Positions 55,231-56,976 of a DNA stretch of 56,976 nt are shown one piece after another. The stretch is taken from the NCBI GenBank assembly GCA_947473045.1, contig CANJCO010000031.1, positions 1-56,976 on the forward strand, in the 5' to 3' direction. The notes below the pieces were generated by a model. It was given only the letters and a program-made list of their open reading frames with translations, was not told the origin of the DNA and did no database searches. Position numbers and translations under genes: made by a program. Every line of letters starts with the position of its first letter. Positions within the stretch are counted from its first letter, which is position 1. The DNA is from Myxococcales bacterium (lineage in GTDB: Bacteria > Myxococcota_A > Polyangia > Polyangiales > Polyangiaceae).

Positions 55231-55307
<77 letters not shown>

Positions 55308-55518: not shown

Positions 55519-56481
55519 ATGATCTGGCCGTTCCTCGCAGTGACCGATAAACAGTGGTTCGACTTTCTCGGCAGTCGGTCCGCGGGCGGCGCCGTCGATG
55601 AGGTCAATTTCTGGTCTCCGAGCGCAAAGTCGCCCATCAAGAATATGGCCCCCGGCGCCCCGGTGTTTTTTCGCCTCAAGCACCCCCACAACGCGATCGC
55701 CGGATACGCATTCTTCGCGCACTTTTGCGTAGTTGGCCTCGACGTTGCCTGGGACCTCTTCGGATGGAAGAACGGCGACCCGGACGAAGAGCGCTTCTTG
55801 CAGCGCATTGGCAAGTACCGAAAAGTGGATTTACTCGCCGACCGCGGCGATCACCAGAAGCTCGGTTGCAACGTGCTGCGCGCTGCGCAGTTCTGGCCGC
55901 GCGAGCGCTGGATCCGCTGGGGCGCGGAGGAGGGATGGTCCCCCAACATTGTGCGCGGCAAGACGGAGGACGCCCCCGCCCGCGCGACCCGCCTGCTCGC
56001 CGAGCTACAGGCGAGCGATCAGCTGATCCCCGACCTTACGCCCGATCGCTTCGAGCCGCTCACGATCGACGAACGCACCATGCGAACCGCGTCGCAGATC
56101 GTGCGCGAAGGGCAGGGGGCTTTTCGCGCGCGCGTGCTCGACGCGTACGGTCGCCAATGCGCCGTCACCGGAGAGCACACCGAGCCCGTGCTCGACGCCG
56201 CGCATATTCAGCCGTACAGGGGGGTGCGCAGCAACCACGTGCAGAACGGGCTGTTGCTCACGAAGGAGTTCCACGCGCTGTTCGACCTCGGGTACGTCGC
56301 GGTGACCCCCGACTACAAAGTGCGAGTCTCGACCGCCTTGAAGACCGACTTCAAGAACGGCAAGCGCTACTACCCTTATGACGGCCAGCGTCTCGCAGCG
56401 CTCCCGGAGCGCGCCGAGCTTCGGCCCAGCCCCGAGGCCCTCGAGTGGCATCTCGAACACGTATTTCGGCGCGCATCGTAA
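55519..56481 (+). CDS. HNH endonuclease with EVE-like N-terminal domain
   Basis: The 320-residue protein ends in an HNH nuclease domain: a core His in DAAHIQPY (His229), Asn243 in VQNGLLLTKE and His252 in FHALFD, plus Cys214 in RQCAVTG. The first 150 residues (TDKQWFDFLGSRSAGGAVDEVNFWSPSA, NMAPGAPVFFRLKHPHNAIAGYAFF) look like an EVE/PUA-type domain that could bind modified bases. Such EVE-HNH fusions are seen in type IV-like modification-dependent restriction. The ATG at 55519 is chosen as the first methionine before the fold; the region 55308-55518 has no gene of its own. Confidence 0.85.
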   Translation: MIWPFLAVTDKQWFDFLGSRSAGGAVDEVNFWSPSAKSPIKNMAPGAPVFFRLKHPHNAIAGYAFFAHFCVVGLDVAWDLFGWKNGDPDEERFLQRIGKYRKVDLLADRGDHQKLGCNVLRAAQFWPRERWIRWGAEEGWSPNIVRGKTEDAPARATRLLAELQASDQLIPDLTPDRFEPLTIDERTMRTASQIVREGQGAFRARVLDAYGRQCAVTGEHTEPVLDAAHIQPYRGVRSNHVQNGLLLTKEFHALFDLGYVAVTPDYKVRVSTALKTDFKNGKRYYPYDGQRLAALPERAELRPSPEALEWHLEHVFRRAS

Positions 56482-56539: not shown

Positions 56540-56556
56540 CTCGGGTATTACCCGAG
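56540..56556. terminator. hairpin between convergent genes
   Basis: CTCGGGT and ACCCGAG form a perfect 7-base stem with loop ATT between the HNH gene and the minus-strand fragment. It has no T-run, so it could be a weak or bidirectional terminator only. Confidence 0.35.
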
Positions 56557-56828
56557 ATGAAAACGCAGCCACTCCCAGACGCGGCCGCCGAACGATTGCG
56601 CTGGCCGGGGCCCCGGGACCGGCGGTGCGGGTTGCGGCCCGCGCCGGTATTCGTCCCACGCGGGGAGGGATTCGATCCGCGCGCGTGCATCGCGGAAGAA
56701 CGCCTGATCGGAGCGCTCTTCGTTGTGCACGCACTGGACGGCGAAGTAATGCGCTTCGCCGACCAACTCCGGGGGGGCCGCGGGATGCGTGGCGAATGCC
56801 AGCCACGCATCCTCCCACCCGAACGGCC
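56548..56828 (-). pseudogene. 5'-truncated coding fragment next to the hairpin array
   Basis: The minus-strand frame from about 56828 to the TAA at 56548 encodes GPFGWEDAWLAFATHPAAPPELV, then EAHYFAVQCVHNEERSDQAFF, and ends SFGGRVWEWLRFHLG. The balanced amino acid use suggests genuine coding. No ATG or GTG start precedes it: the frame runs into the hairpin array and meets a TGA there. The only listed start, a TTG at 56766, would remove about 20 convincing residues. It is probably a gene cut by the inserted hairpin element, though a non-standard start is possible. No family is recognised. Confidence 0.5.
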
Positions 56829-56976
56829 CTAGCAGGCCGTTGAAGAACGGCCTGCTAGCCTTTCATCTCGGGGAGGTATGCACCTCCCCGCCCCGAAAAA
56901 CGCGGTTTTTCGGGGTCCCCACCCCACGCAATTGGCTTCGCCAATTACTATCAGGGTGTTTTTCAACACCCTGCTA
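56829..56976. repeat. cluster of five perfect hairpins at the window edge
   Basis: Five consecutive perfect stems occur in 148 bases: 13 bp with loop GAAG (56829-56858), 9 bp with loop ATGC (56869-56890), 10 bp with loop CGCGG (56891-56915), 7 bp with loop TTC (56930-56946) and 9 bp with loop TTTC (56952-56973). The first and last are related: both end in CCTGCTA, and their stems differ by paired changes. This looks like the end of a mobile or structured element that continues beyond the window. Confidence 0.75.

Follow-up and report, generated by a model that had tools for sequence, protein, structure and literature searches.

Five Stem-Loops at the Contig End

What is the array of hairpins that closes the window (the whole stretch of DNA analyzed, 56,976 nucleotides): a structured RNA, a landing site for a transposase, or a transposable element in itself? 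Sequence folding of this single window resolved its last 148 bases (56829-56976) into five stem-loops, H1 to H5 (Table 1). The RNA fold of the array reached −78.5 kcal/mol, compared to −43.3 ± 4.0 for shuffled sequences (z, −8.7), and the DNA fold reached −53.4, compared to −19.6 ± 3.0 (z, −11.2). None of 200 shuffles attained the fold energy of the array.

In the preliminary description, five perfect hairpins were reported. There are indeed five stem-loops, but H5 pairs perfectly along just 9 bp: the three bases at its outer edge, TAT/CTA, include one mismatch and are target duplication or end, not stem. The proposal that H1 and H5 are diverged copies of one palindrome was confirmed, since the paired change from CC/GG to GT/AC was observed; both variants also stand alone in another genome, G007 (L058, L069, and L065). 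In contrast, the three middle stems, which had been considered unrelated, form one conserved unit together with H1 and H5. As detailed below, we conclude, with a probability of about three in four, that the array is a 141-bp nonautonomous transposable element (MITE), the ends of which come from insertion sequence (IS)-end palindromes and which is probably moved by an IS5-type transposase.

Table 1. Features at the right end of the window
Feature	Positions	Strand	Description or evidence
H1	56829-56858	+	13 bp; left terminal palindrome CTAG-CAGGCCGTTgaagAACGGCCTG-CTAG; solo copies of the palindrome in G007
H2	56869-56890	+	9 bp; CGGGGAGGT..ACCTCCCCG; 7/9 pairs with two-sided changes
H3	56891-56915	+	11 bp; CCCCGAAAAAC..GTTTTTCGGGG; 7/10 pairs with two-sided changes
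Conserved unpaired stretch TCCCCACCCCACGC	56916-56929	+	Core alignment
H4	56930-56946	+	7 bp; AATTGGC..GCCAATT; 4/5 modelled pairs two-sided; 80% of cells paired
H5	56952-56973	+	9 bp; right terminal palindrome CAGGGTGTTtttcAACACCCTG; end shared with the IS at G000:C83
Conserved structured core (model R1 match)	56859-56947	+	Profile match, covariation
Whole mobile element CAGG...CCTG, 141 bp	56833-56973	+	Copies identical or 97-100%; flanks unique on both sides
Left target-site duplication CTAG (YTAR)	56829-56832	n/a	Target-site duplication test, 57 copies
Right target-site duplication CTA(G)	56974-56976	n/a	Target-site duplication test; cut by the contig end
Coding-like open frame (PFGWEDAWLAFATHP...) running into the element	56548-56826	-	Sequence; no Pfam match

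The open frame that runs into the element had no match in a Pfam search and may be a gene interrupted by the element copy. The window also harbors a gene with an HNH endonuclease domain (55519-56481, + strand; PF13391, 4e-11), located downstream of tRNA-Arg (55231-55307).

A Dispersed Repeat in Its Own Genome

Searching this myxobacterial (Polyangiaceae) genome for further copies, as had been proposed, revealed a dispersed repeat. We obtained 40 scored full matches, mostly 97-100% identical; allowing up to 3 mismatches, a 46-base core pattern matched 123 times (58 + 65) in 5.15 Mb (control, 0). The latter number overcounts the copies, since a copy that lies at an assembly break is counted on each of the two contigs ending there. 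The fetched loci gave 97 distinct flank records (28 with both flanks, 38 with the left only, and 31 with the right only), and on the basis of distinct flanks there are at least 66 real copies. Most matches sit at contig ends, which is why the window stops at position 56976, and the repeat accounts for much of the fragmentation of this assembly. The place just right of 56976, where the preliminary description suggested looking for a transposase, lies beyond the contig. Both orientations are present, and the 141 bp do not contain a transposase gene.

At two loci (L009 3775-3948 and L010 1238-1502; G000:C7 and C53), tandem or nested copies share a terminal hairpin; elements thus insert into each other's CTAG. 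A CRISPR-like or tandem array was rejected, since the repeats are dispersed with unique flanks and only a few copies are tandem or nested. Furthermore, a single 99% identical copy terminates a 4,965-bp contig from another genus (G006:C52, L053); it represents either a recent transfer or a mis-binned contig.

A YTAR Target Duplication and a Probable Partner Insertion Sequence

Unique sequence starts outside CAGG...CCTG, and the four-letter flanks on the left and right are CTAG, CTAA, TTAG, and variants. The last base of YTAR agreed between the two sides in 53 of 57 copies (G/G, 41; A/A, 12; G/A, 3; A/G, 1; Fisher p, 8e-9). Insertion of the element thus duplicates a 4-bp YTAR target, as is known for IS5 (PMC10359306).

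A PF01609 search of the genome identified two transposases. The one on contig C83 scored 273 bits with the IS5 model NF033581 (cutoff, 140) and 199 bits with the IS1182 model, below its cutoff of 270. It belongs to the sole IS5-type IS found in this genome, which is present in one copy and has element-like ends (CAGGGTGTTGA...) together with a YTAR duplication, here CTAA (CTAA-CAGGACGTTGAGAAACC...TTTCAACACCCTG-CTAA; right end also given as CAGGGTGTTGAAA). The preliminary description was thus right about IS ends. The sequence common to the element and this IS is only ~12 bp long (CAGGGTGTTGAA). IS homologues in other genera have the same end type with the flanks CTAG/TTAG and CTAG/CTAG (G019 and G043), and a 528-bp derivative in G011 retains a transposase remnant between two hairpin ends. 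Since neither the C83 IS nor its homologues carry the core, the core is not an IS fragment, and with so little shared end sequence, the element does not derive from the C83 IS by simple deletion.

The second PF01609 transposase is encoded by an IS701-family IS (G000:C54 1-1540; L103 1-1540) with 18-bp inverted ends and a CTAG duplication. Its insertion site is the CTAG that closes a repeat copy on the right, showing that two element families share this target.

In summary, the element is short, lacks a transposase gene, exists in many near-identical copies, shares its ends with an IS, and is flanked by a target duplication, as is characteristic of a MITE. The YTAR target and the IS5-type transposase with the same ends place its derivation in the IS5 family. 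The matching ends and the YTAR duplication of the C83 IS suggest that the MITE is probably mobilized in trans by the C83 IS5/IS1182-like DDE transposase. Against this assignment stand the short shared sequence, the coreless IS, its single copy, the occurrence of the core under ends for which no IS was found (G022, G085, and G090), and, in G022 and its relatives, the fixed polarity on TGA stops with no clear duplication.

The preliminary description had also considered that a transposase might recognize the hairpins as single-stranded DNA. This idea was not supported: a search for Y1/RAYT transposases found none in this 99.98% complete genome, while control genomes gave matches, and the matching IS is of the IS5-type DDE class with a 4-bp duplication. 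Palindromic ends would suit a REP/RAYT or IS200/IS605-type single-strand element, but such an identity is highly improbable, as it is contradicted by the absent Y1 (HUH) transposase and the present target duplications.

A stem-loop-seeking transposase of the IS1182 type could instead insert the element within terminator hairpins or substitute it for them. Such replacement of stem-loops, leaving no duplication, is known for IS1272 (PMC5678879), and copies at stop codons in G085, G088, and G090 have no clear duplications; the IS1182 score of the C83 transposase, though under the cutoff, points in the same direction. However, the copies in the own genome bear clear YTAR duplications, which argue against IS1272-like replacement there, and we consider this explanation unlikely overall.

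A Conserved Core under Different Ends

The core model R1 matched 26 of 108 Polyangiaceae genomes (15 of 48 genera), often many times per genome and with a patchy distribution within the family; Minicystis rosea DSM 24000 carries one copy. In a scan of 84,980 species, the listed core matches were in Polyangiaceae/Myxococcales, plus one Proteobacteria record (ZC4RG46); among the matches listed, the pattern hits in Burkholderiales, Roseobacter, Elioraea, and Roseinatronobacter had no core. The flanks of the core follow one architecture with ends that differ by genus: CAGGCNGNTGAA; CTAAATGACCGAGC; CTCAAGAGCTGTCGA; CTAGAACGCCGATC; CTCAATCACCGAGC.

Conversely, ends were found without the core: solo hairpins in G007, and in G022 and G085 units that are solo or coreless. 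At the G007 loci L058, L065, and L069, 22-bp palindromes (CAGGCCGTTGAAAAACGGCCTG and CAGGGTGTTTTTCAACACCCTG) stand alone, flanked by CTA/TAG; two of the three lie directly after a coding sequence ending in TAG. No IS partner for the core ends of G022, G085, and G090 was found beside the lone ends inspected; those of the G022/G085 type were truncated copies, solo hairpins, or chance matches. In G001, two copies (L234 and L235) have a common inserted segment (GCTGTCTGGCGGTCCACTTCGACC) between H2 and H3. Syntenic element-free loci in G064 (L180/L295 and L184/L299) and a G001 ortholog ending at the same stop codon (L132/L303) were too diverged for exact reading of the target.

A tentative extension of these observations is that the core is a portable three-hairpin DNA module, conserved by covariation across a bacterial family, that has moved from the ends of one transposition system to those of another; each of these systems would deliver it to stop codons. 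If so, a cis-acting DNA structure, not an RNA, would make a small element both mobile and tolerable. The core itself could serve as a terminator or insulator or take part in transposition.

Covariation and Maintenance of the Stems

Covariation was analyzed in 67 distinct cores with 24 pairs in H2 to H4. Across these pairs, 93.5% of cells were paired, compared to 46-59% for slid structures; the alignment was fitted to the tested structure and is hence biased towards it, yet the slide controls still drop sharply. Changes on both sides were found for 18 of the 24 pairs, amounting to 192 two-sided-change cells versus 58 in shuffles. We rely on these controls, since a permutation of arms is biased when the arms have been picked for their pairing. 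Thus, the covariation analysis called for in the preliminary description demonstrated that the stems covary in relatives. Selection for folding as RNA, which that description saw as one possible reading of the paired changes, was not supported, because G-T and A-C mismatches were equally common (21 versus 22). A one-strand RNA should favor G-U, and therefore the fold is not visibly selected as such. The equality argues for DNA-level palindromes, for a role of both strands, or for template switching, which is known to create and maintain hairpins (PMC8794818).

Indeed, mutation bias by template switching between the arms might keep the stems perfect without any folding selection. This explanation, which is compatible with a MITE and to which we give somewhat less than even odds, would account for the two-sided changes with few one-sided intermediates and for the mismatch balance. 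In line with it, the outer bases of the 5' hairpin in G085, G088, and G090 covary between near-identical copies (9 of 12). However, the conserved unpaired and loop sequence of the core also needs to be accounted for, and in the own genome outer bases (CTAA or TTAG against CTAG) are uncorrected. Combining strong covariation with balanced mismatches and with arms correctable copy by copy, the element offers a natural experiment on whether compensatory changes prove folding selection.

Placement at Stop Codons

Gene ends were called with a simple home-made program. Genes directed toward the element terminated precisely at the duplication in 15 of the 64 left flanks (p = 2e-4) and 12 of the 51 right flanks (p = 1e-3), while ~8.5% was expected per side. 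Background YTAR sites comprised 12 at stops, 59 other noncoding, and 71 coding sites. Of the copies in the own genome, ~40% lie exactly on stop codons, compared to ~17% of the background noncoding YTAR sites. Small bacterial elements are thereby linked to insertion precisely at stop codons.

In G022, G068, G069, and G116 (L179-L195, L215, and L238), TCA at the right end is the TGA stop of an unrelated gene on the opposite strand. Among the listed copies whose right end is intact, nearly all show this arrangement, and the polarity never varies, but the background is high too, as many noncoding CTCA/TGAG sites in this group are stops. No clear duplication was seen at the element in G022 and its relatives. 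In G085, G088, and G090 (L197-L208), where the cores are nearly identical, the upstream stop codon often supplies the outer bases of the left hairpin, and in 9 of 12 copies the stop-codon bases are mirrored inside the hairpin. The flanking genes were rejected as part of a cassette, since the listed C-termini look unrelated.

Such placement, both the enrichment and the TGA stops, and the strong covariation would also fit a functional structured RNA or bidirectional terminator at gene 3' ends for which spreading is secondary. On the other hand, both orientations occur in one genome, G-T mismatches equal A-C mismatches, the distribution is patchy, and recent near-identical copies carry target duplications. 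Moreover, the element had no Rfam match at gathering or relaxed thresholds, and a known RNA family was rejected on this basis. We regard a primarily RNA or terminator function as rather improbable.

How a MITE Could Spread and Persist

According to the favored MITE model, each end of the element would be a palindrome of two head-to-head copies of the IS end (CAGGSYGTTGAA), enclosing a structured three-hairpin core that would be older than the present ends. The C83 transposase, or a close relative, would bind the double-stranded CAGG ends and move the element by cut and paste into YTAR sites. Insertion at a stop codon or gene end might be tolerated, as the duplication restores TAG or TAA and the hairpins probably act as harmless terminators. 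The perfect stems may be kept by template-switch repair between the arms, by DNA-level selection, or by both.

Comparison with Known Systems

We found no relevant literature on MITEs in Myxococcota or Polyangiaceae, and the element is in no paper that we found. The RUP element of Streptococcus pneumoniae is a MITE of IS630-Spn1 (~107 bp, ~108 copies, target duplication, intergenic; PMC2229807). Like RUP, our element is short, intergenic, and present in many copies with a target duplication and with ends matching an IS elsewhere in the genome. However, RUP uses a TA target and IS630, and no family-wide covarying core was reported for it. The ERIC/IRU elements of enterobacteria (~127 bp) are highly structured, conserved over related genera, and able to sit at gene 3' ends (PMC2229807, PMC10969869), features that recall the element described here. 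By their descriptions, they differ in sequence, in their TA termini, and in having one set of ends, whereas our element has ends that differ between genera around one core. BOX repeats are modular. Like our element, BOX and SPRITE of pneumococcus are small dispersed repeats, SPRITE being terminator-like (PMC10969869), but their sequence and host differ.

With IS5-family ISs (PMC10359306), the element has in common the YTAR duplication and the ends that go with an IS5-type transposase; it differs in lacking a transposase and in its unrelated core. The transposition of IS1272/IS1182 is similarly associated with palindromes near gene ends (PMC5678879), but IS1272 leaves no duplication, in contrast to the element copies in the own genome. 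What is new is the covarying core under different ends together with the placement at stop codons.
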